Shown here one piece after another: positions 14,674 to 62,057 of a stretch of 64,000 nt of DNA. The stretch covers positions 1 to 64,000 of the forward strand of contig PCUV01000048.1 in NCBI GenBank assembly GCA_002786915.1, in the 5' to 3' direction. Source of the stretch: Comamonadaceae bacterium CG12_big_fil_rev_8_21_14_0_65_59_15. GTDB lineage: Bacteria; Pseudomonadota; Gammaproteobacteria; Burkholderiales; Burkholderiaceae_C. Position numbers and translations under genes: made by a program. The notes under the pieces were generated by a model. That model was not told where the DNA came from, did not search any database, and saw only the letters and a program-made list of their open reading frames with translations. Each line of letters starts with the position of its first letter. Within the stretch, counting starts at the first letter, position 1.

Positions 14674-15900
14674 TCACTGCGCTGCGGGCGCTGTCGACGC
14701 GGTGGATACGGCGCCAGAGGGGCCAACGGATGCTTTTGATTCCATAGCTGCCTGCGCTTTATTGGATTGGGCTAGAGGCAATTTTGGCACATAGAGCGTG
14801 ACCTTTTGTCCGGGTGCCAGAACATGCACCCCGGCGGTCACCACCTGCATTCCCGGGACCAGGCCCGTACCAATGACCACGTCGTTACCGTCCGCCGTGA
14901 GCACCTGCACCGCTTGCGAGCGCACTGTCATGCTTCCTGCCTCCAGTACCCACACCGCCGTGGTTTGCCCTTCTTGCCGCAGCGCGCTGGTGGGCAGCTT
15001 GATCAAGGGTGCCCCGGCGCGCTGCACGCTCTGCGGCACGACCGCAACGGTGCTGCCCAGGGGCGGTGCCACGCCTGCGGGCAAAGTAGCGCGCACGGTG
15101 AAGGTACGCGTGACCGGGTCGGCGCTGGCGGCCACCTCGCGCACATGTGCTACGCTGCTCTGCCCATCCGGCCAGCTGCGCATCTGCACCGCGCTGCCAA
15201 CGGCGAGCGCACCTACCTTGTCTTCGGGCACGGCAAACACCACGTCGCGCGCACCGTCGTGCGCCAATTGCAGCACCGGTGTGCCCGCGGCCAGCACCTG
15301 CCCGGGTTCGGCCAGCACGGTGGTGACCACGCCCGCCGCGTCAGCCAACAAGCTGGCATAGCCCGACTGGTTCTGAAGTGCCGCCAGTTGCGCTTGCGCG
15401 GCGTCAAGCTGGGCCTGCGCCGCGTCCAGCGCCGCACGCCGGCGCTGTAGCTCTGCCGCGCTGATGAAGTTTTGCGCGCGCAAAGCGGCAAAACGTTGGA
15501 AGTCGGCGTCGGCCAGATCGCGATTCGTGCGCGCCGCCGCCACCTGTGCACGCGCTGCGTCAGCGCCCAGGCGCAAGTCGGTGGCATCCAGTTGCGCTAA
15601 CAGCTGCCCGGCGCGCACGCGCTGGCCCACATCGACACTGCGCTGCATCAGCTTGCCACCGACCCGAAAGCCCAGCCGCGACTCATGGCGCGCGCGCACT
15701 TCTCCGGTGTATTCAATCTGGCTGGTCAAGGGCGCCGCACCCACGGTGATGACCTTGACAGCGCGCACCGGCTCAGGCGGCGCTGTCGGGCGCGAGCATC
15801 CTGACAACAAAACAGCCGACGCTATAGTCAGGCCCATTAGTGCAGCGCGGTTGCACATCATCACGAGCGGGTTCTGTACATCACTCGTCAACACGTTCAT
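14674..15900 (-). CDS. RND efflux adaptor (membrane fusion lipoprotein)
   Basis: A 408-residue HlyD/AcrA-type periplasmic adaptor. It has a lipoprotein signal with lipobox LLSGC near residue 35. A beta-barrel/lipoyl half (RLGFRVGGKLMQRSVDVGQRVRAGQLLAQLD), an alanine-rich helical hairpin and the second lipoyl half (YASLLADAAGVVTTVLAEPGQVLAAGTPVLQL) follow. It joins the inner-membrane pump to an outer-membrane channel. The ATG at 15900 precedes the signal peptide. Near the C-terminus (residues about 371-388, PKLPLAQSNKAQAAMES) the coding sequence is a copy of the 51-bp palindromic element described in the findings. That stretch lies past the conserved fold. Confidence 0.9.
   Translation of the reverse strand: MNVLTSDVQNPLVMMCNRAALMGLTIASAVLLSGCSRPTAPPEPVRAVKVITVGAAPLTSQIEYTGEVRARHESRLGFRVGGKLMQRSVDVGQRVRAGQLLAQLDATDLRLGADAARAQVAAARTNRDLADADFQRFAALRAQNFISAAELQRRRAALDAAQAQLDAAQAQLAALQNQSGYASLLADAAGVVTTVLAEPGQVLAAGTPVLQLAHDGARDVVFAVPEDKVGALAVGSAVQMRSWPDGQSSVAHVREVAASADPVTRTFTVRATLPAGVAPPLGSTVAVVPQSVQRAGAPLIKLPTSALRQEGQTTAVWVLEAGSMTVRSQAVQVLTADGNDVVIGTGLVPGMQVVTAGVHVLAPGQKVTLYVPKLPLAQSNKAQAAMESKASVGPSGAVSTASTAPAAQ
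14734..14785. repeat. 51-bp palindromic element, copy 1 (inside the RND adaptor gene)
   Basis: A 52-bp copy of the window-wide element. It begins TTTTGATTCCATAGCTGCC and ends GGGCTAGAGGCAATTTT. It lies in frame in the C-terminal tail of the adaptor and encodes part of PLAQSNKAQAAMESK. It matches the intergenic copy at 44407-44458 when reverse-complemented. Confidence 0.75.
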
Positions 15901-15930
15901 GGTGAAACTTTCGTGAGGTTCAAGTTCATT

Positions 15931-15950
15931 TAATGACCAATTGGTTATTA
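15931..15950. promoter_or_regulatory. 20-bp palindromic operator upstream of the RND pump
   Basis: TAATGACCAATTGGTTATTA is a 20-bp palindrome with a single mismatched pair, 31 bp upstream of the adaptor start. Dyads of this size and position are usual binding sites of TetR- or MarR-family repressors of efflux pumps. No such regulator gene lies in the window, so the protein that binds here must be encoded elsewhere. The site also lies 68 bp before hpnC on the other strand. Confidence 0.55.
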
Positions 15951-16017
15951 ATTTTAGACAATGGTGTCGGGCTGTCAGCCCGGGGCACCCATTCACCCTC
16001 AGCACCAGGCCCTTTTG

Positions 16018-16872
16018 ATGCGTTTTTCTACCGTTGAGCACGAGGAAAACTTTCCGGTCGCGTCGCTGCTGTGCCCACCCGCACTGCGCCCGGCGGTGCT
16101 GGCGATCTACCACTTTGCGCGCACGGCAGACGACCTGGCCGACGAAGGTGACGCCACACCGGAGACCCGACTGGCCGACCTGAGCGCCTACCGCGCCGAC
16201 CTGCTGGCCTCCGCCGACCGTCAAGCCCCCAGCGCACGCTGGCCAGGGGTATTTGCGCCGCTGGCGCAGGTGCTGCTACGCCATCAGCTGCCGCTGGCAC
16301 TGTTGCTGGATCTGCTGGACGCGTTTGAGCAGGACGTGCGCTACACCGGCCAACAGCGGCGCTATGCCAGCCAGGCCGAGCTGCTGGACTATTGCCGCCG
16401 CTCGGCCAACCCGGTGGGGCGCTTGTTGCTGCATCTGTACAGCGTGCACGACGACACAGCCCAGACCCAAAGCGACCAGATTTGCACCGCCTTGCAACTG
16501 ATCAATTTCTGGCAAGACGTGAGCGTGGATGTGCCACGCCAGCGTTGGTACATCCCGCAAGACAGCATGCGGCAATTTAGCGTGTCTGAGGACGATTTCA
16601 GCCCCACCAGCACTTCGCAAAACGCATCGTTATTGATAGCGCATCAAGCAGATTTTGCAAGGGCCATGATGCAAAAAGGTGCTTGCCTTGCGCTGACACT
16701 CCCGGGCCGCGTGGGCTGGGAACTGCGGCTGGTGGTGCAAGGCGGGATGCGCATTCTGGACAAGATTGAAGCGAACGGCTGCCAGCCCTGGCGCCAGCGC
16801 GTGCGCCTGGGCGCAGGCGACGTCGTGCCGCTGCTGTGGCGTGCGCGGCTAATGGGGTGGTGTTCAAAGTAG
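16018..16872 (+). CDS. hpnC: Hydroxysqualene synthase HpnC
   Basis: A 284-residue squalene/phytoene-synthase-fold protein that converts presqualene diphosphate to hydroxysqualene, the second step of the bacterial HpnCDE route. The first aspartate motif is D38-D39 (TADDLADE). The second is Q166-D167xxxD171 (NFWQDVSVD). The N-terminus HEENFPVASLLCP is typical of HpnC. I chose the ATG at 16018, just before it. Residues about 205-220 (LIAHQADFARAMMQKG) are encoded by a copy of the 51-bp element. The opening enzyme hpnD and the closing enzyme hpnE follow downstream. Confidence 0.92.
   Translation: MRFSTVEHEENFPVASLLCPPALRPAVLAIYHFARTADDLADEGDATPETRLADLSAYRADLLASADRQAPSARWPGVFAPLAQVLLRHQLPLALLLDLLDAFEQDVRYTGQQRRYASQAELLDYCRRSANPVGRLLLHLYSVHDDTAQTQSDQICTALQLINFWQDVSVDVPRQRWYIPQDSMRQFSVSEDDFSPTSTSQNASLLIAHQADFARAMMQKGACLALTLPGRVGWELRLVVQGGMRILDKIEANGCQPWRQRVRLGAGDVVPLLWRARLMGWCSK
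16630..16677. repeat. 51-bp palindromic element, copy 2 (inside hpnC)
   Basis: A more diverged 48-bp copy, starting TTATTGATAGCGCATCAAGC. It is in frame in hpnC and covers about residues 205-220. It is recognised by the GATAGC arm, the A/T outer ends and the spacing. Because it is the weakest match, confidence is lower than for the others. Confidence 0.5.
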
Positions 16873-16904
16873 GACAGTGGTATCGCGTTGAACCGCGCAT
16901 CAGC

Positions 16905-16960
16905 TGGCTTTGGCGGCCTCCTCATACGGGGGTACCCGAAATCGTCAGCCGCCAAAGCCA
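16905..16960. repeat. 56-bp palindromic repeat, copy A (after hpnC)
   Basis: TGGCTTTGGCGGC (16905-16917) and GCCGCCAAAGCCA (16948-16960) are perfect 13-bp inverted arms around a 30-bp centre. A closely related copy lies at 19181-19236, with the same 48-bp spacing between TTTGGCGGC and GCCGCCAAA and only about five to six base differences. The upstream words CGTTGAACC are also shared. It is a REP-like intergenic element placed after hpnC and after hpnD. Confidence 0.75.
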
Positions 16961-17020
16961 TCCGCTGCGCTCAGCAGTGTCTCAGGCGTTTGCCAACCCA
17001 ATGCAACGTCCAGCGGCGTG

Positions 17021-17124
17021 CGTTGGGTATCTGACGCAGCTGGACTTGGGGTTTTGCCAAAATAAAGGCGGAGGTTCGGGCTGTGCCCGAACCGGGGGAC
17101 ATTTGCGGAGTCGGATACCCAACG
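17021..17124. repeat. Inverted repeat with internal hairpin, hpnC downstream region
   Basis: CGTTGGGTATC (17021-17031) and GATACCCAACG (17114-17124) are perfect inverted arms. Between them, GGTTCGGGC-TGT-GCCCGAACC (17073-17093) is a nine-base-pair stem with a three-base loop and no T-run. With copy A of the REP-like element it fills the 362-bp space after hpnC, which otherwise holds no gene. It may stop or stabilise transcripts or be a dispersed repeat. Confidence 0.5.
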
Positions 17125-17234
17125 TGCGCTGCGGGTCGAAGCTGAAACACATCCCCGTGCACAACCTGAAAAGGTATCATCCGGCCCACTGCAAGGGCCA
17201 GTTTGTGCCGTTGGTGGTCTCTGAAAGTCAAGCC

Positions 17235-18017
17235 TTGAAATCAATCTTCGTCACACTGTTGTGGGTGCTCAGCGCGTTGCAGTGCGCTATGGCTGTGGCA
17301 GATACCGCGCCGCAAGCGGTACGCGACCAGCTGGTGGCGCTCTACGGTGCACAGGCCCCGCTGGCAATTCGTCAAACGGGCTCGACCACTTCGTTCAGCA
17401 GGGGCGAAGGTGCGTTGGTACGGCTGTTCAAAAGCCCGGACCGCTTTCGCAACGAAATTACTTACAGCTCCGGGCAAGAGGTGCGTACGCTGGTCGGCCC
17501 GCTGGCCTGGCAACAAAGCAAGCCAGCCAACCCGGCGTTGCGCAGTGCCATCGTGCTACAGGCCGCGCGCGTAGCGCTGCCATGGAATGTGCTGGCGCGC
17601 TGGAGCGAAACCCACGACCGGGGCACCGAACCCGACGACAGCGGTAATACCTTGCAATTGATCGAGTTGGAACTGGAACCCAACCTCAAACTGGTGATCC
17701 ATGTGGACCGGGCCAGTGGCCGCATTGTGCGTTCGCGCGGTGTTATGGAAGTGGGCACGCGCAGCATGGAATTTGCCACGCGCTACTCTGATTTCCGTAG
17801 CCAGAGCGGGCGTGTTTATGCCGCGCGGGAGCAGCAATTTGCCGCTGGCCAGCACACCGGCTACTCGGTTATTGAGCACATTGAGTTTCTGGATGCATTG
17901 CCCGACAGCGCATTCGCCCCTTGGTTGCAGGTGCAGGCGCCTGCGCACACAAGCCCCCGGATTTTGTTGACGAAAGTAGATCATGTCCTATCCCCCAGAA
18001 TTCCTGAAACGCGTTGA
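17235..18017 (+). CDS. Secreted LolA-like protein of unknown function in the hopanoid cluster
   Basis: A protein of about 260 residues with an N-terminal signal peptide (SIFVTLLWVLSALQCAMAVA). Alternating beta-strand patterns follow (GALVRLFKSPDRFRNEITYSSGQEVRTLVG, LKLVIHVDRASGRIVRSRG, MEFATRYSDFRSQSGRVYAARE), resembling the LolA/LolB lipoprotein-carrier fold. No ATG precedes the signal, so I take the TTG at 17235, which has GAAAG seven bases before it. A GTG a few codons upstream is possible. It lies between hpnC and hpnD and overlaps the DUF3144 gene by 35 bp. A role in moving hopanoids or lipids across the periplasm is inference from position and fold only. Confidence 0.6.
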   Translation: MKSIFVTLLWVLSALQCAMAVADTAPQAVRDQLVALYGAQAPLAIRQTGSTTSFSRGEGALVRLFKSPDRFRNEITYSSGQEVRTLVGPLAWQQSKPANPALRSAIVLQAARVALPWNVLARWSETHDRGTEPDDSGNTLQLIELELEPNLKLVIHVDRASGRIVRSRGVMEVGTRSMEFATRYSDFRSQSGRVYAAREQQFAAGQHTGYSVIEHIEFLDALPDSAFAPWLQVQAPAHTSPRILLTKVDHVLSPRIPETR

Positions 18018-18255
18018 CGAGTTCATCGACTTAGCCAACCGCATGGCGCAAGGCGGCAACGACGGCGAAGCCAGCGCCGCCATCCTGTTCGCTGCCGGGC
18101 GCTACAACGCTTTCAATTATCTGTCGCACACCGAGAACCCGACACCTGCTGACGAAGCCAAGGCGGTGGACTTTTACGTCAGCGAATACCGCAAGGCGCT
18201 CAAGTCCAACCTGGCCGGTGCCGTGGGGCCGGTCATCGACAAGCCCAAACCTTAA
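17983..18255 (+). CDS. DUF3144 family protein
   Basis: A 90-residue soluble protein. It matches the pattern of DUF3144 (FLKRVDEFIDLANRMA near the start, then FAAGRYNAFNYLSHT), a short helical family of unknown function in proteobacteria. The ATG at 17983 is inside the last 35 bp of the LolA-like gene in another frame, and the stop is two bases before hpnD. The tight packing suggests one transcript with the hopanoid genes. The protein has no signal peptide. Confidence 0.75.
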   Translation: MSYPPEFLKRVDEFIDLANRMAQGGNDGEASAAILFAAGRYNAFNYLSHTENPTPADEAKAVDFYVSEYRKALKSNLAGAVGPVIDKPKP

Positions 18256-18257
18256 GC

Positions 18258-19121
18258 GTGGCAGGCCGAGCCGTGGCCGCCACAGACGCCGTGCAGGAGA
18301 TCACTGCCAAGAAGCTGGCCGCTGGCAGCAGCTTTTACTACGCCTTCCTGTTCCTGCCGCCACCGCAGCGCGACGCCATCACGGCGTTTTATGCGTTCTG
18401 CCGCGAGGTGGACGACGTGGTGGACGAAGCCACCGACCCGGGCGTGGCGGCGGCCAAACTGGCCTGGTGGCAGTCCGAAGTGCGCCAGGCGTTTGCCGAC
18501 ACCCCATCGCACCCGCTGATGAAAGCCTTGATACCGGCGGCGCAGCGTTACAACATTCAGGCGTCGCAGTTGCAAGCGGTGATTGAAGGCTGCCAGATGG
18601 ATTTGCAGCAGTCGCGCTACCTGGACTACCCCGGCCTGCAACGCTATTGCCATCTGGTGGCTGGCGTGGTGGGCGAAGTGGCCGCGCAGATTTTTGGCCA
18701 AACCCAACCCGAAACCACGCGCTACGCGCACACGCTGGGGCAGGCGCTTCAGCTGACCAACATCATCCGCGACGTGGGCGAAGACGCGCGACGTGGCCGC
18801 ATCTACCTGCCCATGAACGAGCTGCAGCAGTTTGGCGTGACCGCCGCTGACATTCTGCAAGGCCGCTACAGCGAGCGCTTTACCGCCCTGATGCAGTTTC
18901 AGGCCGAGCGCGCGCGCTCACTGTACACGCAGGCGCTGGCTGCGCTGCCCGCAGCAGACCGGCGCGCGCAAAAGCCCGGCCTGATGATGGCCAGCATCTA
19001 CCGCGCTCTGCTGGCCGAAATCGAGCGCGAAGGGTTTGCCGTGCTGCACCAACGCATCTGCCTGACGCCCTTGCGCAAGTTCTGGCTGGCCTGGAAGGTG
19101 CAAGCGCTGGGGCGGTTTTGA
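18258..19121 (+). CDS. hpnD: Presqualene diphosphate synthase HpnD
   Basis: A 287-residue squalene-synthase-fold enzyme that condenses two farnesyl diphosphates to presqualene diphosphate, the first step of the HpnCDE route. The motifs are D52-D53xxD56 (REVDDVVDE) and D172xxxD176 (IIRDVGEDARRGRIYLP). The SSFYYAFLFLP start is typical. The first codon is probably the GTG at 18258, two bases after the DUF3144 stop. A GTG at 18273 is also possible. The gap to hpnE holds the second REP-like element. Confidence 0.94.
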   Translation: MAGRAVAATDAVQEITAKKLAAGSSFYYAFLFLPPPQRDAITAFYAFCREVDDVVDEATDPGVAAAKLAWWQSEVRQAFADTPSHPLMKALIPAAQRYNIQASQLQAVIEGCQMDLQQSRYLDYPGLQRYCHLVAGVVGEVAAQIFGQTQPETTRYAHTLGQALQLTNIIRDVGEDARRGRIYLPMNELQQFGVTAADILQGRYSERFTALMQFQAERARSLYTQALAALPAADRRAQKPGLMMASIYRALLAEIEREGFAVLHQRICLTPLRKFWLAWKVQALGRF

Positions 19122-19180
19122 GAGGCAATATGGCGCGTGTGCAGGGCATCGACTTTGTCACGTTGAACCCGCACGGCGGC

Positions 19181-19236
19181 AGTCTTTGGCGGCCTCCTCA
19201 TGCTGGAGTACCAGAAATCGTCGGCCGCCAAAGCCA
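19181..19236. repeat. 56-bp palindromic repeat, copy B (between hpnD and hpnE)
   Basis: TTTGGCGGC (19185-19193) and GCCGCCAAA (19224-19232) bracket a centre that closely matches copy A at 16905-16960. The left outer arm is degraded (AGTC instead of TGGC), while the right keeps GCCA. It occupies most of the 181-bp hpnD-hpnE spacer. Confidence 0.75.
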
Positions 19237-19302
19237 GCCACCGTACTGGACGCGTTTGCACATTGAGCCATCCCGTGCCAATCTCGCTCGTCGGATGTTC
19301 AC

Positions 19303-20652
19303 ATGAGGGTAGCCGTCGTAGGTGCTGGCTGGGCGGGCTTGGCCGCTGCGGTGAAAGCCACCCAAGCCGGGCACCGGGTGACGGTGTTTGAAGCATCGCG
19401 CAACGTGGGTGGGCGCGCCCGTGCCTTGCCCGTCACCCTGCCAGACGGTCGCGCGGTGATGCTGGACAACGGTCAGCACATTCTGATTGGCGCGTACACC
19501 GAGACGCTGCAATTGATGCGGCTGGTTGGTGTTGACCCGAAGCAGGTGCTGCTGGAACGGCCCATGACGCTGCAGTTTGCTGACGGCACCGGCATCCGTT
19601 TTGGCAACGGGCCAGCGCCGTTGGATGCGCTCCAAGGTATGCTCACCGCCCGCGGCTGGCGCTGGGCTGACAAGTCCTCACTGCTGGGGGCTACGCTGCG
19701 CTGGCGGCGGGAGGCCTTTAGCTGCGACGTGGGCCTGACCGTTGCAGCCTTGTGCCAGACGCTGACAGCGCGGGTACGCGCCGATTTGATTGAGCCGCTG
19801 TGTGTTTCGGCGCTCAACACGCCCGCCGACCAAGCCAGCGCCACCGTGTTTTTACGCGTGCTGCGCGATGCACTTTTTGGTGCCAACGGCAGCTCGCACC
19901 TGCTATTGCCCCGTGCCAGCCTGAACGTACTGCTGCCTGACGCAGCGCTGCGCTGGCTCACGCACAACGGCGGCACGCTGCACCTGGCTAGCCGTGTGAC
20001 TGCGGTCATGCAAAGCGGCGACCAATGGTTGGTCAACGGCACGCCATTTGACTCGGCCGTTTTCGCGTGCTCTGCAAGAAATACGGCTCAAGCCCTGATG
20101 CAATCAGCTCCGGCAGCTACACCTGAAATAGCAAAAAACATCATGGCATGGACCGCCGTGGTGAATGCCCTGCGTTTTGAGGCCATCACCACCGTCTATG
20201 CGCGGTCCCCAACGGCGACGTTGCCGCAACCCATGCTGGCGTTGCGCAGCAGCGCTGACGCGCCCGCACAATTTGTTTTTGACCGTGGGCAATTGGGTGG
20301 CCCGGCCGGATTGTTGGCCTTTGTGGTCAGCGCCAGCCCAGGCGAAGGCGCGCGCCTGCAAACACAGGTGCTGGCGCAAGCCCGTGCCCAGTTGAGCCTG
20401 CACTTGCAAGCGGTACAAACCGTGGTGGAAAAACAGGCTACATTCGCCTGCACCCCGGTGCTGGTTCGACCTGCCATGCAGATTGCGCCCAGGCTGCTGG
20501 CATGCGGTGATTATGTCGCCGGCCCTTACCCTGCCACGCTGGAAGGCGCCGTGCGCAGTGGTGTGGCGGCCGCTGCCGCCATCGATCCGAATCCATCGTC
20601 ATCAACAGACGTCAACCATGCCATGGTCCATCCCCGTATGATTCACCCATGA
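19303..20652 (+). CDS. hpnE: Hydroxysqualene dehydroxylase HpnE
   Basis: A 449-residue FAD-dependent amine-oxidase-fold protein that reduces hydroxysqualene to squalene, the last step before cyclisation to hopanoids. The N-terminal dinucleotide motif VAVVGAGWAGLAAA and the following EASRNVGGRA are clear. The C-terminal FAD-contacting block reads ACGDYVAGPYPATLEGAVRSG. The start is the ATG at 19303. Residues about 259-276 are encoded by a copy of the 51-bp element (20078-20128), between the substrate and FAD halves. No squalene-hopene cyclase gene is in the window. Confidence 0.93.
   Translation: MRVAVVGAGWAGLAAAVKATQAGHRVTVFEASRNVGGRARALPVTLPDGRAVMLDNGQHILIGAYTETLQLMRLVGVDPKQVLLERPMTLQFADGTGIRFGNGPAPLDALQGMLTARGWRWADKSSLLGATLRWRREAFSCDVGLTVAALCQTLTARVRADLIEPLCVSALNTPADQASATVFLRVLRDALFGANGSSHLLLPRASLNVLLPDAALRWLTHNGGTLHLASRVTAVMQSGDQWLVNGTPFDSAVFACSARNTAQALMQSAPAATPEIAKNIMAWTAVVNALRFEAITTVYARSPTATLPQPMLALRSSADAPAQFVFDRGQLGGPAGLLAFVVSASPGEGARLQTQVLAQARAQLSLHLQAVQTVVEKQATFACTPVLVRPAMQIAPRLLACGDYVAGPYPATLEGAVRSGVAAAAAIDPNPSSSTDVNHAMVHPRMIHP
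20078..20128. repeat. 51-bp palindromic element, copy 3 (inside hpnE)
   Basis: A 51-bp copy, beginning AAATACGGCTCAAGCCCTG, with GGCAGCTAC in the right half. It lies in the same orientation as the intergenic copy at 44407. It is in frame and encodes NTAQALMQSAPAATPEI in HpnE. Confidence 0.7.
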
Positions 20653-20677
20653 ACCACACTATCATCCATTCATCATC

Positions 20678-23101: not shown

Positions 23102-23126
23102 TCTTCTCCCAGAACGGCTTCGCCCC

Positions 23127-24233: not shown

Positions 24234-24243
24234 CCGTTCAGAC

Positions 24244-26160: not shown

Positions 26161-26171
26161 GCGCTTGTGGC

Positions 26172-30357: not shown

Positions 30358-30879
30358 ATGACAGCCGTTTTTTTGACGGTGCTTGATCGCGCGCCGCGCC
30401 GGGTGTTTACGCTGGTGAGTGTGACCTGTGTGGCGATGCTGGCCTTTGGCCTTTACCTGCAACACAGCACCGGTGTGGAACCCTGCCCGATGTGCATCGT
30501 GCAACGCTATGCTCTTTTTAGTGTAGCTATTATTGCTGCTTTGACAGCGGCTAGAAGCAAAAAATCCGTTTGGATGGCGGGGTCGGTGTTGATTTTGATC
30601 ACCGCAATTTTTGGCGCTTTTGTGGCCGCTCGCCAAAGCTGGTTGCAGTGGTATCCGCCGCAGGTGGCTACCTGTGGGCGCGACTTTTACGGCATGATCG
30701 AATCGTTTCCGCTACAGCGCGTGATCCCGATGATTTTCAAGGGCAGCGGCGATTGTTCGGCGGTGGACTGGACCTTTTTGGGTGCGACCCTTGCCAACTG
30801 GTCGTTCGTTTGCTTCACCCTGTTTGCGGTTTTGGCTTTGCTGATGCTTTGGCGCGTAGCGATACGCCAAAATCACTGA
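30358..30879 (+). CDS. dsbB: Disulfide bond formation protein DsbB
   Basis: A 173-residue four-helix inner-membrane protein that reoxidises DsbA and passes electrons to quinone. The first catalytic pair is C43-P-M-C46 followed by the conserved arginine R50 (CPMCIVQR). The second pair is C106 and C133 in the periplasmic loop (VATCGRDFYG, GSGDCSAVDW). Residues about 53-69, which form the second membrane helix, are encoded by a copy of the 51-bp palindromic element. It follows the small Cys-rich gene by three bases. Confidence 0.94.
   Translation: MTAVFLTVLDRAPRRVFTLVSVTCVAMLAFGLYLQHSTGVEPCPMCIVQRYALFSVAIIAALTAARSKKSVWMAGSVLILITAIFGAFVAARQSWLQWYPPQVATCGRDFYGMIESFPLQRVIPMIFKGSGDCSAVDWTFLGATLANWSFVCFTLFAVLALLMLWRVAIRQNH
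30514..30564. repeat. 51-bp palindromic element, copy 4 (inside dsbB)
   Basis: A 51-bp copy with TTTTTAGTGTAGCTATT at its left, AGCGGCTAGAAGCAAAAAA at its right. It is in frame and encodes the second transmembrane helix of DsbB (FSVAIIAALTAARSKKS). Orientation is the same as copy 1. Confidence 0.7.
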
Positions 30880-35176: not shown

Positions 35177-37033
<1,857 letters not shown>

Positions 37034-37097: not shown

Positions 37098-37748
37098 ATG
37101 AATCGATCCACCCCTTTGACAGCTCTGCAAGTGATGCAGGACGCCCCGGTAATCCCGGTGATTGTGCTCAACGACGTGGCGCACGCTGTGCCGCTGGCGC
37201 GCGCGCTCTTGGCCGGTGGCATCCGCATGCTGGAAGTGACTTTGCGCACGCCGCAGGCGCTGGCCTGCATCGAGACCATTGCGCGGGACGTGCCCGACGC
37301 GGTGGTGGGTGCGGGCACGGTGCGTAGCAAGGGCGATGCGCAAGCGGCTGCTAGGGCAGGTGCGCACTTTGCGGTCAGCCCCGGCTACACCCGTGCGGTC
37401 GGGCAGGCGTGTCGTGACGTGGGGTTGGCCTTGCTGCCCGGTGTGGCCACGGGCGGCGAGATCATGGCCGCGTGCGAGGACGGGTTCACCCAGTTGAAGT
37501 TCTTCCCCGCAGTTCATGCGGGCGGGGTGGCGATGCTCAAGGCCTGGGCGGGTCCGTTTTATGACGTGAAGTTTTGCCCCACCGGGGGCATCACGCTGCA
37601 AAACGCGCCCGACTTTCTGGCGCTGCCCAATGTGGTGTGTGTGGGCGGCAGCTGGCTGGTTCCCGCTGGCACGGCAGAACAGGGCGACTGGGGGCGCGTG
37701 ACGCGGCTTGCCAGCGAAACCGAACATTTAAAGAAAATAGCGCTCTAG
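37098..37748 (+). CDS. eda: 2-dehydro-3-deoxy-6-phosphogluconate aldolase
   Basis: A 216-residue class I aldolase that splits KDPG to pyruvate and glyceraldehyde 3-phosphate, completing the Entner-Doudoroff branch begun by edd. The barrel has GGIRMLEVTLRTPQAL, VVGAGTV, and the Schiff-base lysine region TQLKFFPA, followed by KFCPTGGIT. The ATG at 37098 has GAAAG seven bases before it. An upstream TTG is less likely. The last five codons (KKIAL) and the TAG stop lie in a copy of the 51-bp element. Confidence 0.96.
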   Translation: MNRSTPLTALQVMQDAPVIPVIVLNDVAHAVPLARALLAGGIRMLEVTLRTPQALACIETIARDVPDAVVGAGTVRSKGDAQAAARAGAHFAVSPGYTRAVGQACRDVGLALLPGVATGGEIMAACEDGFTQLKFFPAVHAGGVAMLKAWAGPFYDVKFCPTGGITLQNAPDFLALPNVVCVGGSWLVPAGTAEQGDWGRVTRLASETEHLKKIAL

Positions 37749-37786
37749 CCCAAGTTATTCAATGGCTGATAGCTCTATAAAAAATA
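37734..37786. repeat. 51-bp palindromic element, copy 6 (end of eda)
   Basis: A 53-bp copy beginning AAAATAGCGCTCTAGCCCAA and ending AGCTCTATAAAAAATAG. It supplies the final codons and the TAG stop of eda and then runs into the spacer before gloA. Confidence 0.75.
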
Positions 37787-37834
37787 GTAAAACTCCCCGG
37801 TTTCATTGCCGGCGGCAGTTGCTCAGGCAGTGAT

Positions 37835-44399: not shown

Positions 44400-44406
44400 G
44401 GTTTAT

Positions 44407-44458
44407 ATAAAAAATTGGCCTCTAACCCTTATGAATCAACGGCTAGCAGCTATTAAAA
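44407..44458. repeat. 51-bp palindromic element, copy 7 (intergenic, reference copy)
   Basis: A 52-bp copy, TATAAAAAATTGGCCTCTAA on the left and GGCTAGCAGCTATTAAAA on the right. It is the only wholly intergenic copy and was used to compare the rest. Outer ends are A/T-rich, inner arms hold GCCTCTA/CTAGCAGC, and the centre is variable. Confidence 0.8.
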
Positions 44459-44485
44459 GTAATTAACGTGAAAAACGCTGAGTTT

Positions 44486-49980: not shown

Positions 49981-50060
49981 TTCATGAAATTGGTACCACT
50001 TGGTAGCCTGTCCCAGCGGACACCATTTATCAATGCTACAGAATTAAATTCGGAGTTTTT

Positions 50061-53114: not shown

Positions 53115-53129
53115 GAATGCCGCTTTGCT

Positions 53130-53258: not shown

Positions 53259-53515
53259 GCATAAACGGCGGCCATGATGAGCTATTCCAATGAGACCCAC
53301 TTCCAAGCTTTCAAGACAGCCGGATTCGCTAAAACTTAAAAAAAGCGTGAATTTCGGATGCACTACTCCCGAGTTCGACAGTTAAAACCGTAAGTCATTG
53401 ATGGTGCGCTGCAACCGCGCCACTACAAAAAGTCAACTGGGCGGGAAGGGTTGGTTTCTTGATCGTCAGTGCTTGTTTCTTGTGAACGTCAATACCGTGC
53501 AACCAATCACAAATT
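53259..53515. other. Spacer after the AAA-ATPase relic, nothing recognised
   Basis: About 250 bases, AT-richer than the following gene, with no frame I can match. It may include further remains of the truncated ATPase gene. Confidence 0.4.
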
Positions 53516-56500: not shown

Positions 56501-57019
56501 CAGCGTTTCTTCGGGCGTTTGCACGCCTGGTTCCATGCGGATGGTGTAGTTGATGTCCTGGTGCACCATGGCGTTGAGGTCCACCAAAAAAATCACGCTG
56601 CGGCGCTTGGTGCGGTCGATTTTGTCCAGATAGGCCTGCAGCTTGGGGGTGACCGGGTCGGCTTGCAGGTAGGGTGTTAGCTCTTGCTTGAGGTCGGTCG
56701 CGTAGTCAAACGGAAATTCCTCGGCCTCTGGCTCCAGGAAAAAGTCAAACGGGTTATAGACCGACATGTCCAGCACCACATCGACCGTTACCTTGAATTC
56801 ACGCGTTTTCTCGGGGAACACCAGGCGCGCCTGGTAATTGGCAAACGGGTCTTGCTGCCAGTTGATGAAGTGCCCCGCAGGCTCCACCTTAAGCGAGTAA
56901 GAAATGATCTTGCTGCGGCAATGCGGGGCAGGGCGCAGACGAATCACCTGCGGCCCCAGAGTGACCAGCTTGTCGTAACGGTAGTGGGTAACGTGGTTGA
57001 TGGCGGCGTGGATGGTCAT
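53516..57019 (-). CDS. Transglutaminase-like protein with DUF2126 domain
   Basis: A 1167-residue cytoplasmic protein. The N-terminus (about 1-80) is the bacterial transglutaminase N domain ([19 protein letters not shown]). The transglutaminase core (about 100-290) has the cysteine in [20 protein letters not shown] and the histidine in [23 protein letters not shown]. From about residue 350 DUF2126 begins ([16 protein letters not shown]) and runs to the end, including the [13 protein letters not shown] and [16 protein letters not shown] blocks. The same fusion occurs in loci with alpha-E and circularly permuted ATP-grasp proteins, but none is adjacent here. The ATG at 57019 is chosen. A large antisense frame over this gene is only its GC-rich shadow. 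Confidence 0.9.
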   Translation of the reverse strand: [1167 protein letters not shown]

Positions 57020-57111
57020 AAGGGTCTTGGTGCGGGAGATGAACCCAGGAGGGACTGTGACTGAACTAGCAATGTTGATGCCAGTGGCGCAAGCGTAGAA
57101 GTAAACCTGTT

Positions 57112-57516
57112 TCAAACGATCCAGTCTTCAAGTTTCAGCCCCGGCACATTGTCAAAGTGGCGGGTGTTGTGGGTGACCAGAATCAGTTTTTCGGCCAGGG
57201 CGTGGGCGGCGATCAATGTATCCATGTCGCCAATGGGTTTGCCTTGGATCTTGAGACCGTGCTTGAGCACGCCATACAGGTCTGCTGCCTCAACACTCCA
57301 TTCGACGCACGGCAGCCGTAAGAAAAAACCATCAATCAGGGGGCGTCTGCGGTCCTCTGGTGTCATACCCATTTGTCCATAGCGCAGTTCAGCGCGGGTG
57401 ATGACCGAAATGACAATGGTGCGATGTTTGAGTGCTTCATTGACGCGCTCCTCCAACGCCGGCGACGATCGCCGCAAATAATAGCTGACGATGTTGGTAT
57501 CGAGCATGTAGCGCAT
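57112..57516 (-). CDS. vapC: VapC-type PIN-domain toxin
   Basis: A 134-residue PIN-domain ribonuclease. The acidic residues of the active site are visible in MRYMLDTNIVSYYL (D6), VITRAELRYG (E) and IGDMDTLIAAHAL (two D), with a last one in VTHNTRHFDNVPGLKLEDW. It would cut RNA (in known VapCs, initiator tRNA or 23S rRNA) when free of antitoxin. The ATG at 57516 shares one base with the TGA of the antitoxin gene (TGATG), so the pair is translationally coupled. Confidence 0.93.
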   Translation of the reverse strand: MRYMLDTNIVSYYLRRSSPALEERVNEALKHRTIVISVITRAELRYGQMGMTPEDRRRPLIDGFFLRLPCVEWSVEAADLYGVLKHGLKIQGKPIGDMDTLIAAHALAEKLILVTHNTRHFDNVPGLKLEDWIV

Positions 57517-57770
57517 CACGCATCCCACCCTTCAAACGGGCTAGGTCGGGGAGCATCATCACGAGGCTGCAAAAACTCTTCTGATGGGGGGGTCGCCCGT
57601 AATTCGGCCAAAAATGCTTCCAGTTCGTCTTTTTTAGGCTTGGGTTGAATGGTGATGATGCCGTCGCTGGATTTACTGATCCAGACTTCATCGCTATTGA
57701 CCCGAAACGCTTTTGGCAAACGAATGGCCTGGCTATTGCCCGTGGAAAATACTTTGGCTGTGGCAATCAT
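57516..57770 (-). CDS. vapB: VapB-type antitoxin (AbrB fold)
   Basis: An 84-residue antitoxin with the SpoVT-AbrB DNA-binding fold at its N-terminus (AKVFSTGNSQAIRLPKAFRV) and a Pro/Glu-rich tail that should clasp the PIN toxin (DELEAFLAELRATPP). The start is the ATG at 57770. A dyad upstream (57789-57808) is a plausible operator. Confidence 0.92.
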   Translation of the reverse strand: MIATAKVFSTGNSQAIRLPKAFRVNSDEVWISKSSDGIITIQPKPKKDELEAFLAELRATPPSEEFLQPRDDAPRPSPFEGWDA

Positions 57771-57788
57771 GGTAGACCTTGATGCGAA

Positions 57789-57808
57789 AGATATATGAAA
57801 ACGTATCT
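57789..57808. promoter_or_regulatory. Candidate vapBC operator
   Basis: AGATA (57789-57793) and TATCT (57804-57808) form an inverted repeat 18 bp upstream of vapB, extended imperfectly on both sides. VapBC complexes usually bind such dyads to repress their own operon. Confidence 0.35.
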
Positions 57809-57975
57809 ACTTTATCACCAGCCACACTGTCAGTTCAAAGCCTTTCTGCCTCCGCGCGGCACCTGCCGCATCCATCCATGGCACCAGCACTCTGAACGTC
57901 CATGATCAAGCCACCCGTAGCCCCCGGATGTGGGTAGCATCGTGACTTCTGCCATCACTACCGAACCCGTTCGCC

Positions 57976-58941
57976 ATGCATCACCGCAACCCCCACGCCT
58001 TGTTGTCACCTGCCATGCGCGGCGTACTGGAGCGCATGGCGCGTGCCGGTCATCCGCCGCTGCACGCGTTGACGCCGCAGCAGGCGCGCGCGGCCTATGA
58101 ACTGGGTGCTGATGTGCTGGACTTGCCGCCGGTCAAGCTGGAGCGGGTAGAAAGTTTTACGCTGCCTGCCCGTGACGGCGTGGACCTGCCGGTGCGCCTG
58201 TATGCGCCTGCCTTGCCCGACGCATCGCCTGCGCCCTGGCCGGTGCTGGTGTATCTGCACGGCGGCGGCTTCACCATTGGCAGCATCGCCACGCACGACG
58301 TGCTGTGCCGCAGCCTGTGCCATTTGGCACAGTGCGCGGTGCTGTCGGTGGGGTATCGGCTGGCGCCTGAACATCGCTTTCCAACCGCGTTTGAAGATTG
58401 CTGGGACGCGCTGCAATGGCTGCATCAGCACGGTACAGAACTGGGCTTGGATGCGACACGCATCGCCGTGGGCGGTGACAGCGCAGGCGGCACGCTGGCG
58501 GCGGCTTGTGCCCTGCAGGCGCGCAATAAGGGTCTACCACTGGCGCTGCAACTGCTGATTTATCCTGGTACCTGCGCCCATGCAGATACACCATCACACC
58601 AGCGCTTTGCACACGGTTTTGTGCTCGAAAAAGAGCATATCGACTACTTTTTTGACCTCTACATTCCGGACCATGCGCAACGCGAGGACTGGCGCTTTGC
58701 CCCCTTGAACGCACCCGATGTGGACGGTGTGGCTCCGGCCTGGTTTTGCCTGGCCGAATGTGACCCGCTGGTGGGCGAGGGCTTGGCTTACGCCGACAAA
58801 TTGCGTGCGGCGGGCGTGCCGGTGGAGCTGGAGCTGTACCGCGGCGTGACGCACGAATTCATCAAAATGCGCCGCGTGATCCCGCAAGCGCGGCAAGCGC
58901 ATCTGGACGCAGCACGGGCGTTGCGGCAAGCGTTTGGTTGA
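57976..58941 (+). CDS. Alpha/beta hydrolase of the hormone-sensitive-lipase group
   Basis: A 321-residue esterase/lipase. The oxyanion motif is YLHGGGFTIGS near residue 95. The nucleophile serine is in GGDSAGGTLAAA (about residue 172). The acid is in AECDPLVGEG and the histidine in GVTHEFIKM. This GDSAG layout defines family IV (HSL) esterases. The start is the ATG at 57976, after a 205-bp spacer without genes. No lipid substrate can be named. It is followed by a TA module on the same strand. Confidence 0.9.
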   Translation: MHHRNPHALLSPAMRGVLERMARAGHPPLHALTPQQARAAYELGADVLDLPPVKLERVESFTLPARDGVDLPVRLYAPALPDASPAPWPVLVYLHGGGFTIGSIATHDVLCRSLCHLAQCAVLSVGYRLAPEHRFPTAFEDCWDALQWLHQHGTELGLDATRIAVGGDSAGGTLAAACALQARNKGLPLALQLLIYPGTCAHADTPSHQRFAHGFVLEKEHIDYFFDLYIPDHAQREDWRFAPLNAPDVDGVAPAWFCLAECDPLVGEGLAYADKLRAAGVPVELELYRGVTHEFIKMRRVIPQARQAHLDAARALRQAFG

Positions 58942-58954
58942 GTAGCAATGGCTT

Positions 58955-58981
58955 CAGATGTGCTATTCTATGGCACATCTG
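58955..58981. promoter_or_regulatory. Perfect inverted repeat upstream of the TumE/TumA-like pair
   Basis: CAGATGTGC (58955-58963) faces GCACATCTG (58973-58981) across nine bases (TATTCTATG). It ends 12 bp before the toxin ATG. It is the natural place for an operator bound by the winged-helix antitoxin. It could also hide the ribosome-binding site as an RNA hairpin. Confidence 0.5.
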
Positions 58982-58993
58982 GTAAGACCGAGT

Positions 58994-59311
58994 ATGGCGA
59001 AGCAACCCAAAGACATCCTGCTGGAGCATGAGCGCTTTGAGCTTAAGCCAAAGTCCGGTGGTGGTGTGTTGAGTTATGAGGTTTGGGGATATGTGCAAGG
59101 CGGTAAAACCGTGGTCACCCGCTATAACCTGGCCTACATCAACCATGCCATTTGCCCCGTTGACAATGGGCGCGTGCTCGGATTTGACAACGCCCATGGT
59201 TACCATCACCGACATTGCATGGGTGAGGTTCATCCCGTTGAATTTATCAGTTACCAGAACACGTTGGAGAGGTTCCAGCAAGAGTGGTTTGCCATCGTTC
59301 GCTCAAAGTAA
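58994..59311 (+). CDS. TumE-like toxin (DUF6516 family)
   Basis: A 105-residue protein. The block GRVLGFDNAHGYHHRHCMG, then EVHPVEF, is the core of the TumE/DUF6516 toxin-like family, and the LERFQQEWFAIV end also fits. The ATG at 58994 lies just after a 27-bp dyad. The wHTH protein starts 11 bp downstream with AAGGAGAG, so the order is toxin first, antitoxin second, as in known TumE-TumA pairs. Activity of this family is poorly known. Confidence 0.7.
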   Translation: MAKQPKDILLEHERFELKPKSGGGVLSYEVWGYVQGGKTVVTRYNLAYINHAICPVDNGRVLGFDNAHGYHHRHCMGEVHPVEFISYQNTLERFQQEWFAIVRSK

Positions 59312-59322
59312 GGAGAGTCTGC

Positions 59323-59697
59323 ATGTCCAAAATTGTGATCCGCACGGATGATCTGGCTGGTTTTTTTGACCGGGCCAAAGATGCTGCACGCCGCGCTGAC
59401 CAGGGCCAGTCCTTTGAAGAAACGGCAACCATCTCGTTCGAAGATCCGCAACAAATGTTCAACGTGTTGTCTGACGCGCGCCGTCGCCTGATGGCTGAAG
59501 TGATGCGTGAGCCCAAGACCATCAACGAACTCTGCCATTCTTTGCGTCGCCATCGAACGGCCATCACCAAAGACGTTGGTTTGCTGGAACGCATGGGTTT
59601 GCTGATTTCTACCCGGCAGTCCAACCCGGGGCATGGCATTCAAAAAACGGTGTCGTCCGTTGCGCCCAGGATCGAGCTGATGGCAACATTGGGGTAA
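59323..59697 (+). CDS. TumA-like winged-helix antitoxin
   Basis: A 124-residue protein with a MarR/ArsR-like winged helix (NVLSDARRRLMAEVMREPKT, INELCHSLRRHRTAITKDVGLLERMGLL). The recognition helix is RHRTAITKDVGLL. The first 45 residues are charged. It is preceded by a good ribosome-binding site AAGGAGAG (from about 59310). It is likely both antitoxin and repressor of the pair. It ends nine bases before rlmB. Confidence 0.7.
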   Translation: MSKIVIRTDDLAGFFDRAKDAARRADQGQSFEETATISFEDPQQMFNVLSDARRRLMAEVMREPKTINELCHSLRRHRTAITKDVGLLERMGLLISTRQSNPGHGIQKTVSSVAPRIELMATLG

Positions 59698-59706
59698 AAA
59701 GACCCT

Positions 59707-60480
59707 ATGTCAAATCCCAAAACCCTGTTCGGCTTTCATGCTGTGGGCGTGCGTCTGAAAACCGCGCCCCAATCCATTGTTGAAATTTATGCCGACCCGA
59801 CTCGGCGCGACGCGCGCATGCGCCAGTTTGTCGAGCGCGTCGTTGAGGCGGGTGTGCGCCTGATCGAGGCCGACAGTATGCGGCTGGCCAAGCTGTGTGG
59901 CAGCCACGGGCACCAGGGCGTGGTCGCGCGCGTGCATGAATTGGCTCAGGTCACCTCGCTTGACGAGTTGCTCGAGCAGTTGGAGGCTGCCAATGCTGAT
60001 AAACCTTTGGCAGAGCGCGAACAGCCGCTGCTACTGGTGCTCGACGGCGTGACCGACCCGCACAACCTGGGTGCCTGCTTGCGTGTGGCCGACGGTGCCG
60101 GTGTGCACGCGGTGATTGCGCCCAAAGACCACGCGGCGGGCATCAACGCCACAGTGGCCAAGGTGGCCAGCGGCGCGTCTGAGACCGTGCCGTACTTCAT
60201 GGTGACCAATCTGGCACGCACGCTGGGCGAGCTGAAAGAACGCAACATCTGGATCATCGGCACCAGCGACCAGGCCAGCAAGACGCTGTACCAGGTCGAT
60301 CTGAAAGGCCCGGTGGCGCTGGTGCTGGGGGCCGAAGGCGACGGCATGCGCGCGCTCACCGCCAAAACCTGCGACGAGCTGGTGCGCATTCCGATGCGCG
60401 GCGCAGTGGAAAGCCTGAACGTGTCGGTGGCCAGCGGGGTGTGTCTGTACGAGGCGCTGCGCCAGCGCACGGCGCTTTGA
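59707..60480 (+). CDS. rlmB: 23S rRNA (guanosine(2251)-2'-O)-methyltransferase
   Basis: A 257-residue SPOUT enzyme that methylates G2251 of 23S rRNA. The N-terminal substrate-binding part starts LFGFHAVGVRLK. The SPOUT domain shows LVLDGVTDPHNLGACLRVADGAG, LVLGAEGDGMRALTAKTCDELVRIPM and VESLNVSVASGVCLYEALR, the knot sequence. The start is the ATG at 59707. The tight spacing after the TA pair puts an essential-type gene next to it. Confidence 0.94.
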   Translation: MSNPKTLFGFHAVGVRLKTAPQSIVEIYADPTRRDARMRQFVERVVEAGVRLIEADSMRLAKLCGSHGHQGVVARVHELAQVTSLDELLEQLEAANADKPLAEREQPLLLVLDGVTDPHNLGACLRVADGAGVHAVIAPKDHAAGINATVAKVASGASETVPYFMVTNLARTLGELKERNIWIIGTSDQASKTLYQVDLKGPVALVLGAEGDGMRALTAKTCDELVRIPMRGAVESLNVSVASGVCLYEALRQRTAL

Positions 60481-60500
60481 TTTTTTAACTGGGGGTGACC

Positions 60501-60860
60501 ATGATTGCCATGAAATTGAGAGCTGCCAGCGCTTTATTAACGGGCGCTACAGCCCTGTTTTTCTTGCAAGGCTGCACGCAGGAACAGCAGAACAAGATCA
60601 GCCGCGACATCCAGAACTGGACCGGCACCAACGGCGTGCTGGAGTTTTACGCAGGCGACAAGGTGGTGCGTCGCTTTATGAAGATCGACAAACTATCCAC
60701 TGCGCTGGGCACCTCTGATAACCAGCCACGCCCGTACCGCTACGGTTACGGCGTGATGGACGAGAACCTGAATTTTGTGGCCGACCCGGGCGAGAAAAAA
60801 GTGTATTTTGAGATCAGCGACTACGGCTCCAACTACCTGTTCTTTGAAAACCCGCACTGA
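60501..60860 (+). CDS. Small lipoprotein of unknown function
   Basis: A 119-residue protein. The signal peptide (MIAMKLRAASALLTGATALF) ends at the lipobox FLQGC with C25, so the mature form should be a lipid-anchored protein of about 95 residues. The hydrophobic part of the signal is encoded by a copy of the 51-bp element (60513-60563). The mature part has mixed strands (GVLEFYAGDKVVRRFMKIDK, VYFEISDYGSNYLFF). I do not recognise the family. The ATG at 60501 is chosen over a GTG two codons upstream. Confidence 0.6.
   Translation: MIAMKLRAASALLTGATALFFLQGCTQEQQNKISRDIQNWTGTNGVLEFYAGDKVVRRFMKIDKLSTALGTSDNQPRPYRYGYGVMDENLNFVADPGEKKVYFEISDYGSNYLFFENPH
60513..60563. repeat. 51-bp palindromic element, copy 8 (in a lipoprotein signal peptide)
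   Basis: A 51-bp copy with AGAGCTGCCAGCGCTTTATT at its left and GGGCGCTACAGCCC at its right. It is in frame and encodes LRAASALLTGATALFF, the hydrophobic core of the signal peptide. Confidence 0.7.
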
Positions 60861-60879
60861 CCACATTGACCGTACGCAG

Positions 60880-61476
60880 TCAAACCAGCCCGAACCAGCC
60901 TAACAGCCCACCCGCGCCCAATAGCCACAGCAGGTGCAGCCGGGTGCGCCAGACCAGCAGGGCGCTGACTGCTGCCAGCAGCCACAGTGGCCAGTTCTGC
61001 CGCGACGTGCCCAGATTGGTTGTCAGAACCCAGCTGGTGGCCAGCATCAGGCCCACCACGATGGGGGCCATGCCCTGTTTGAAAGCGCGCACGGCGCGCA
61101 GCTCGCGGTTTTGGTGCGCCCAGCGCGATGCCACGAACGTCAGCGTGGTGCTGGGCAGCAAAATCCCCACCAGCGCCAATAGCATCCCCAGCGCAGCACT
61201 GGCCCATGACAGCAGCCCGGTCGGTGGGCCACCGGCGGCGTTTAGCCCCACGTTCCAGCCCAGTAGCGCCACAAACAGCACGTTCGGGCCGGGGGCGGCT
61301 TGCCCCAGTGCAATCGATGCATTGAACTGGGGGGCCAGCAGCCAGTGATGGTCATCGACCAGCACGCGGTGCATGTCGGGCACGGTGCTGATGACGCCAC
61401 CAATGGACAGCAGCGACAGCGTCAGAAAATGCCCCAGCAGCGTCAGCCAGTCGGCCAGCGTCAGAGTGATGCTCAT
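60880..61476 (-). CDS. Chromate transporter, second half (CHR domain)
   Basis: A 198-residue membrane protein with one CHR (chromate ion transporter) domain: LLGHFLTLSLLSIGGVISTVPDMHR near the start and ALGQAAPGPNVLFVALLGWNVG with the conserved PGPN. The ATG at 61476 overlaps the stop of the preceding half by four bases (ATGA). Short-chain ChrA systems are two such halves with opposite topology that work together. Whether chromate, sulphate or another anion is carried is unknown. Confidence 0.88.
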   Translation of the reverse strand: MSITLTLADWLTLLGHFLTLSLLSIGGVISTVPDMHRVLVDDHHWLLAPQFNASIALGQAAPGPNVLFVALLGWNVGLNAAGGPPTGLLSWASAALGMLLALVGILLPSTTLTFVASRWAHQNRELRAVRAFKQGMAPIVVGLMLATSWVLTTNLGTSRQNWPLWLLAAVSALLVWRTRLHLLWLLGAGGLLGWFGLV

Positions 61477-62057
61477 GGGGTGCGTTGCGCCCGGGCTTGT
61501 GCCAGCAAGCGGTTGGCCCACAGGCTGGTGGCGCTGCCCAGCCCCAGCAAGACCCAGATCAGGGGTACGCGCAGCACCGCAATCAATACAAAAGTAATAG
61601 CTACCAGCGCAGTACATACGGTGGCTGAGAGCACATTTTGCTTTAAAGCGGGGAACAGCTTGAAGCCGGTGGCGGCGATCATCCCGGCGGCCACCGCGCC
61701 CATGCCGCGCAATGCGCCTTGCAATTGCGGCGAGTCTGCCGCACCCAGCGTCAGCCACGCCAGCGCCAGCACAATCAAGAGCGGAAACGTCAACATGCCC
61801 GCCAGCGCGGTCAGGCCACCGCGCACGCCAAAGTGGCGGTCGCCGATCATCAGGCACAGGTTGACCACGTTCGGGCCCGGCAGCACCTGCGCCACCGCCC
61901 AATCTTCAATGAACTGCTCGCGCGTAAGCCATTGCCGCTTGTCCACCAGCTCGCGCTGCACCACGGCCAGCACGCCGCCAAAGCCTTGCAGCGCCAGCCA
62001 GGTAAAGGCCCAGAACAGCTCGCGCAGCGATTCGGGATGCGGGTGCTCGGTTGTCAT
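61473..62057 (-). CDS. Chromate transporter, first half (CHR domain)
   Basis: A 194-residue membrane protein with one CHR domain (WLALQGFGGVLAVVQRELVD; VAQVLPGPNVVNLCLMIGDRH with PGPN). Residues about 140-155 are encoded by a copy of the 51-bp element (61590-61640), inside the last membrane helices (SATVCTALVAITFVLI). It overlaps the second half by four bases. The ATG at 62057 is preferred to one six codons upstream. The 3' end of the neighbouring hydrolase is four bases away. Confidence 0.88.
   Translation of the reverse strand: MTTEHPHPESLRELFWAFTWLALQGFGGVLAVVQRELVDKRQWLTREQFIEDWAVAQVLPGPNVVNLCLMIGDRHFGVRGGLTALAGMLTFPLLIVLALAWLTLGAADSPQLQGALRGMGAVAAGMIAATGFKLFPALKQNVLSATVCTALVAITFVLIAVLRVPLIWVLLGLGSATSLWANRLLAQARAQRTP
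61590..61640. repeat. 51-bp palindromic element, copy 9 (inside a chromate transporter half)
   Basis: A 51-bp copy with AAAAGTAATAGCTACCAGCG at its left and GGTGGCTGAGAGCACATTTT at its right. It is in frame, covering residues about 140-155 of the CHR protein. Confidence 0.7.

Follow-up and report, generated by a model that had tools for sequence, protein, structure and literature searches.

A long two-armed DNA motif within and between the genes of Comamonadaceae: a possible self-DNA recognition signal

Motif copies at the locus

The DNA analysed here (the window) comprises the first 64,000 nucleotides of contig PCUV01000048.1 of Comamonadaceae bacterium CG12_big_fil_rev_8_21_14_0_65_59_15 (assembly GCA_002786915.1), and contains dispersed copies of a long, two-armed motif lying both within and between genes. 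The original prediction, made from the sequence alone, had listed nine copies of a 51-base pair (bp) palindromic element and proposed that it had entered coding sequences in frame, in the manner of the palindromic elements of Rickettsia. When the window was scanned with a weight matrix trained on copies from outside this contig, nine copies scored at least 8 bits, comprising eight of those listed (31–67 bits) and a further one at position 3969.

An intergenic copy lies at 44401..44466 on the − strand (66.7 bits). Near the C-terminal end of an RND adaptor gene (14674–15768, −), identified by its Pfam HlyD matches, a copy corresponding to residues LPLAQSNKAQAAM occupies 14731..14796 on the + strand, opposite to the gene, and scores 63.2 bits with the matrix and 65.5 bits with a covariance model. 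The edd gene (35177–37033, +), identified through the solved relative 2gp4, holds a copy at 36365..36430 (−, 41.5 bits). The remaining gene names in the window (hpnC, hpnE, dsbB, eda, lipoprotein and CHR) are labels carried over from the original prediction. Under these labels, copies are present in hpnE (called gene 19303–20652, +; copy 20068..20133, −, 31.4 bits), in dsbB (open frame 30358–30879, +; copy 30510..30575, +, 34.6 bits), over the 3' end of eda (37134–37748, +; copy 37724..37789, −, 50.6 bits), at the start of the lipoprotein gene (60501–60860, +; copy 60506..60571, +, 50.3 bits) and in the CHR protein gene (61473–62057, −; copy 61584..61649, +, 39.8 bits). The additional copy, at 3969..4034 (+) in a called gene at 3922–4863 (+), is weak, with 15.4 bits by the matrix and 14.4 bits (E 3.2) by the covariance model.

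The last of the listed copies, at 16630 (16623..16688, +), scored only 0.6 bits and is not established. It could be a decayed motif, since matrix positions of 0 bits or more number 80 (unmerged by place) in 400 kb of this genome and only 1, 0 and 1 per 400 kb of reversed, Markov and motif-poor sequence, respectively. The first covariance model (10 copies, filters off, E ≤ 10) recovered seven of the nine listed copies, missing those at 16630 and 36375.

Both orientations occur among the window copies of at least 8 bits, as predicted. Six lie wholly in called genes (3969, 14731, 20068, 36365, 60506 and 61584), 37724 spans the 3' end of a gene, and 30510 and 44401 fall outside the gene calls. Only the copy at 44407 had been described as wholly intergenic; the gene calls leave 30510 outside too, but it is contained in the open frame 30358–30879, which the gene caller missed. 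The six host genes and this open frame read through their copies with no stop, in agreement with the predicted in-frame occurrence.

Definition of the motif and its abundance

A unit of approximately 66 bp describes the motif better than the 51 bp first proposed. It consists of a 35-bp core with two arms, TAGCTGCTTGCGCTT and AAGGGCTAGAGGC, separated by 7 bp and flanked on the outside by A/T-rich sequence. The motif is dyad-symmetric, with arm centres approximately 21–22 bp apart and a variable spacer, and has a mean GC content of 43%. The exact core pattern occurs 12 times in the genome (4.34 Mb, 118 contigs), with no occurrence of the reversed control pattern. A covariance model built from an alignment of 10 of these 12 copies gave 147 matches at E ≤ 1 in the same genome; the number of candidates scored in a genome by covariance searches was capped at 150, 87 or 34 (150 in this case), and the resulting counts are lower bounds.

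The weight matrix was derived from 77 training copies, none from contigs C21 and C62 or from the contig of the window (C94), and has a total information of 62.6 bits. Applied to C21 and C62 (400 kb), it found 70 copies at 4 bits or more, 65 at 8 or more and 54 at 20 or more, compared with 0, 0 and 1 at 4 bits or more in 400 kb of reversed sequence, Markov sequence and a genus mate poor in the motif (G003). On C21 and C62 the covariance model gave 26 matches, and on the G003 set none. Scaled from the matrix count, the genome holds about 700 copies. The dispersed repeat family that had been proposed is thus confirmed as real, specific and dense, with clean controls. Scores range widely, from 4 to 60 bits, with no increase toward the low end. 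A simple scan for the arms was abandoned as a detector in favour of the trained matrix, having returned 9 matches against 0–3 in random sequence. No description of the motif was present among the literature matches listed, which are mostly outside subscription journals, and the string TAGCTGCTTGCGC appeared in no paper searched.

Placement in genes and reading frames

Genes were called with our own codon-usage caller. In an unbiased set of 74 copies scoring at least 8 bits (C21, C62 and the window), 45 are wholly genic, 5 lie over a gene end and the other 24 fall between genes, with 85% of the sequence called coding. The frames of the 45 genic copies are dominated by opposite-strand phase 2 (19) and same-strand phase 1 (15), followed by same-strand phase 0 (7), opposite-strand phase 1 (3) and same-strand phase 2 (1). 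An earlier set, biased by score and reduced from 108 matches to 103 distinct copies by removal of 5 duplicates, contains 32 copies in genes, 12 partial and 59 intergenic; 25 of the 32 are in opposite-strand phase 2, reading approximately PLALxxxAQAAI, and 6 are in same-strand phase 1. The notion that copies are fitted to their host proteins was counted as supported. Matches to Pfam or to solved relatives identify purL, edd, ybiB, threonine aldolase, uvrA and a homologue of glutamyl-Q tRNA(Asp) synthetase (GluQ) among the host genes, and from their sequence we take further hosts to be dapF, ybgI, mutL, an asparaginase-like gene and a nuoF-like gene, among others. One 1005-codon gene (L127:307–3321) contains the motif twice, both times in one and the same frame.

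An alternative explanation lies at the level of RNA, as a hairpin or bidirectional terminator. When 12 cores were folded, 10 showed the arms paired in the expected register; many intergenic copies lie near the 3' end of a gene, and covariation is present at a low level, with 87.0% of cells paired against 86.2% (equalled in 23 of 500 shuffles) and two pairs at z of approximately 3. This covariation is too slight for RNA to be retained as the nature of the motif, and a terminator in a genic copy would break off transcription of its host. Divergent genes flank two of the intergenic copies, and Rfam at gathering scores, applied to 14 sources, returned two tRNAs only, with the motif matching no curated RNA model. 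A hairpin or terminator is regarded as very improbable.

Constraint on the motif as DNA

To compare codons and sites between relatives, 16 of the 32 genic copies in the score-biased set were used as queries, with at most 16 relatives aligned per host. All counts derive from these 16 hosts, of which one (L085_3730) aligned mostly to paralogues and changes little when removed. Five relatives had been counted independently as motif-bearing and four (G077, G081, G092 and G095) were classed as bearing by their sites alone; G053 and G016 have 3 and 1 matches, and nine relatives have none.

Where a residue is identical, the five counted relatives use the same codon at 320 of 428 positions inside the motif versus 3022 of 5029 beside it, and the four site-classed relatives at 230 of 312 versus 2086 of 3713. 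The values for G053 and G016 together are 53/99 inside and 960/1753 beside, and in the nine matchless relatives the order is reversed (91/284 versus 3278/5986). Scores of the aligned sites follow the same classes. At least 8 bits were reached by 37 of 41 rows in the counted relatives and 29 of 33 in the site-classed ones (66/74 together), with medians of 53.6 and 56.2 bits; by 7 of 15 rows in G053 and G016 (median −2.8 bits, 15 of 16 rows scored); and by 3 rows of the matchless relatives (median −51.3 bits, 50 of 53 rows scored). Within the motif, CTA makes up 19 of 106 leucine codons, versus 320 of 14,633 outside.

As judged by codon choice, the motif is shown to be constrained as DNA even within coding sequence, and the alignments show that it keeps the same genomic places in most of the motif-bearing relatives examined. 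The codon pattern and the kept sites together therefore point to a DNA-level signal that is maintained or eroding according to lineage, rather than to an element that is currently invading. In motif-poor genus mates, remnants are apparent, with 20 of 25 sites in the top 10% of their own gene and, for ungapped sites, 18 of 20 in the top 2%. Most simply, the motif would be ancestral in the genus and lost in some lines.

Host-gene length at motif sites

Given that motif-poor mates carry motif-like remnants, only other families of the order were usable as outgroups, and the use of such mates as 'empty sites' was dropped. The test was limited to four hosts, partly picked for the absence of a gap within the genus. 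At the ybgI site, length is equal in eight of nine outgroups and the ninth is 2 residues longer. The ybiB gene, which hosts the top-scoring copy (76 bits), is 4 residues shorter in this genome than in six of seven outgroups and 7 longer than in the seventh; the solved YbiB structure 4muo differs at the site by a gap of 4 residues, and over the displayed stretch the site is free of indels in 29 genus relatives, of 43 matching genomes including this one. The dapF site is 4 residues longer than in 10 of 12 outgroups, 3 longer than in one and equal to one, with the 7 residues immediately upstream also absent in nine of the 12, for approximately 11 in all. In the asparaginase-like gene, the site is 2–3 residues longer than in both outgroups, which are 34–40% identical.

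No motif-sized insertion (16–22 residues) was present at any of these four sites relative to the outgroups, and no clean empty site was found in the comparisons made. Native codons seem to have been rewritten in place at ybgI, ybiB, dapF and the asparaginase-like gene, where the earlier statement that an element entered the gene is not supported. The analogy with a gene-invading element of the Rickettsia kind finds no support at these four hosts but does fit uvrA, as considered below. The site region of GluQ was left unaligned against a solved structure (71 versus 31 residues). In one relative (L422, in G013), the orthologue of the L040 host is 43 residues longer in the site region than in this genome, with the extra residues directly after the motif.

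Distribution within the family

Matches at E ≤ 1e-4 were found in 39 of 60 genomes of the genus and, with a stricter filter at E ≤ 1e-6, in 25 of 150 genomes of the family (24 of 141 genera). The exact core was absent from 16 genomes of other families of the order. A contig scan gave at least 120 matching stretches. Among the 80 listed, 74 carry the name of the Comamonadaceae or of one of its genera and 6 only broader names; the names in this list include Rhodoferax, Polaromonas, Simplicispira, Giesbergeria, Acidovorax, Curvibacter, Variovorax and Comamonas.

A candidate self-DNA recognition signal

Among known systems, the motif appears closest in behaviour to the DNA uptake sequences (DUS) of Neisseriaceae and the uptake signal sequences (USS) of Pasteurellaceae. 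In the portions of the two sources drawn on here, these sequences lie within genes too, reportedly evolve through point mutations rather than insertion, are described as non-palindromic with cores of 9–10 bp, and are reported only from those two families (PMC1939737, PMC7811141). As far as those descriptions extend, DUS, USS and the motif share high copy number, genic and intergenic placement and both orientations, and USS and the motif share A/T-rich flanks. The in-place evolution reported for DUS and USS resembles what is seen at ybgI, ybiB, dapF and the asparaginase-like gene, whereas uvrA, edd, threonine aldolase and purL have longer loops. The overrepresentation in and between genes that characterizes DUS and USS is found for the motif as well. 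The likeness is one of sequence behaviour, between sequences of 9–10 bp and a two-armed motif of approximately 66 bp and 60 bits.

The favoured explanation, to which a probability of somewhat under 0.4 is assigned, is that the motif is a self-DNA recognition signal accumulating in place by molecular drive. The likeliest cause would be that transformation favours the uptake or recombination of DNA bearing the motif, as with DUS and USS. Stretches resembling the motif would mutate toward it, the better-matching ones would be imported more often, and protein function would select which reading frames survive. Lineages that lose the reader would allow their sites to erode, and an insertion may lie at the origin of some sites, such as the one in uvrA. 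It is possible, if on the doubtful side, that Comamonadaceae are a third family of bacteria whose genomes carry an uptake (self-DNA) signal throughout. This signal would be an unusually long motif of two arms and 66 bp that has overwritten native codons of hundreds of genes, housekeeping genes included, and is erased upon loss of the reader.

Several observations weigh against a self-DNA recognition signal. Lone half-sites of 10 bits or more outside full copies are scarcely enriched (left arm 33 versus 17–23 in controls; right arm 41 versus 10–32), so that stepwise intermediates are not evident; the half-site was dropped as the motif unit for the same scarcity. Likeness to the motif in outgroups is weak, the top 10% being reached by 7 of 30 rows and by 1 of 9 when ungapped, and the remnants in motif-poor mates could instead be native family resemblance. 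ComEC bears no relation to motif number across the 60 genomes, being found in 20 of 21 matchless and 36 of 39 matching ones (56 in all), and was rejected as a correlate; among motif-bearing genomes it went undetected in G023, G059 and G063. As far as the uptake sequences are described in the sources, the motif is far longer than any of them and, unlike them, dyad-symmetric. Variable centres are shared between copies beyond expectation, with 97 pairs within one mismatch versus 51.5 expected (standard deviation 7.7), an excess that some copying between sites would explain; similar-centre pairs number 12 versus 4.9 expected in genes and 47 versus 26.7 outside. Finally, some hosts exceed their solved relatives in length at the motif. 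In uvrA, gaps of 9 and 11 residues at or beside the site total approximately 20, while edd is 13, threonine aldolase approximately 26 and purL 9 residues longer. An old insertion is likely enough at uvrA, because the gaps sum to about the size of the motif, and may have occurred at edd, threonine aldolase and purL.

The last two points belong equally to a rival explanation, and a serious possibility, that an old gene-invading palindromic element was inserted throughout the genome of an ancestor of the family, adjusted in length later and kept in frame, with the present constraint reflecting subsequent use by the host. In the part of the source consulted, Rickettsia palindromic elements are approximately 150 bp long and described as integrated, in frame, in unrelated genes (PMC10969869). 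On that description both they and the motif are palindromic repeats in frame inside unrelated genes, and the in-frame presence within coding genes that defines the Rickettsia elements is observed here. The dominance of two frames (25 and 6 of 32 in the biased set; 19 and 15 of 45 in the unbiased) and the reduced loop length that motif-poor mates show at several sites are also as an insertion would leave them: three mates are shorter by 11–20 residues at uvrA and three by 14–18 at threonine aldolase, where one is 10 longer. A local array on contig C19 (L098, G000:C19:2400–10400) holds four copies, three of which are alike at 52–58 of 66 positions, and is the clearest case of copying. Against this explanation, ybgI, ybiB, dapF and the asparaginase-like gene lack a motif-sized insertion relative to the outgroups, although uvrA fits one. 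Length differences across the eight hosts with an outside reference scatter from −4 to approximately +26 residues, and codon choice is constrained within the motif. In a comparison with miniature inverted-repeat transposable elements (MITEs), which are marked by target-site duplication and recent near-identical copies, the best pair overall (58/66) lies within the C19 array; outside it the best pairs reach 55/66, little above the shuffled top of 51. Fresh copying was accordingly rejected as a general origin, pair identities being near the null apart from that array, though centres are shared beyond expectation.

A motif of this form could also be the binding site of a dimeric protein organising the chromosome or acting in replication or repair, its copies being retained because binding across many sites is of use. 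Dyad symmetry with arm centres 21–22 bp apart across a variable spacer, both orientations, genic as well as intergenic sites and conserved positions would all be expected of such a site. That hundreds of sites of approximately 60 bits were each selected separately is, we argue, implausible without drive; no candidate protein was found, and Y1 transposase is independent of motif number. A binding site of this kind is judged unlikely.

Two other families of bacterial repeats were considered. Repetitive extragenic palindromic (REP) elements are short imperfect palindromes present in hundreds of copies, mostly extragenic. The motif likewise consists of short imperfect palindromes in hundreds, but is often genic. 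The link between copy number and Y1 transposase that marks REP elements and their associated tyrosine transposases (RAYT) was not found across the 60 genomes, and a RAYT-like transposase was dropped as a correlate, Y1_Tnp being present in 18 of 21 matchless and 35 of 39 matching genomes with RAYT subtypes pooled. The Beta-proteobacterial repeat element (BRE) is described, in the part of its source used here, from Bordetella and Comamonadaceae, with some copies in coding sequence, a length of approximately 90 bp, a mean GC content of 69% in Bordetella and at most 29 copies per genome (PMC3110155). Compared by description, the motif differs from BRE in length (66 bp), GC content (43%) and copy number (approximately 700).

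Copies on plasmids and viral contigs

A plasmid search with one motif copy returned 1745 records; among the 25 listed, the match covers 42–51 of 66 bases and 22 lie in a DUF1010 gene. A second copy used as query gave no plasmid match. In NC_004464.2, the sole plasmid record scored whole, a copy of 64.4 bits over the full 66 positions (L505:888–953) lies in a DUF1010 gene that forms a cassette of a class 1 integron and is flanked by dfrA12 and aadA2. The cassette gene is known as gcuF/orfF. The presence of the full motif in the cassette suggests that it came from Comamonadaceae. The Pfam profile of DUF1010 has 66 positions, of which the copy spans approximately the initial 20, and the N-terminal third of PF06231 (approximately positions 1–24) looks like the motif translated in its third open frame, as ASSPxxxSASSY. 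When intergenic copies from this genome were translated and compared with that stretch of the profile, 2 of 10 gave weak matches below the cut-off (E 0.0022 and 0.044).

A phage collection contained one matching record, named Salmonella. Two IMG/VR viral contigs (L357 and L358) are identical over 66 bp to a copy of this genome at C82:27089–27154, which sits inside a gene matching N6_Mtase/Eco57I. A mobile region shared between these contigs and C82 is possible.

Significance

A motif acting at the level of DNA and rewriting many coding sequences would be a force on protein evolution that does not depend on what the proteins do. Should the motif prove to be an uptake signal, such signals would have arisen a third time, and great length and dyad symmetry would be shown to be compatible with this role. 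The motif may explain a stretch of the Pfam family DUF1010, and hints at the source of a widespread integron cassette. With motif-rich and matchless members in one genus, the search for the protein that reads the motif becomes a direct comparison.

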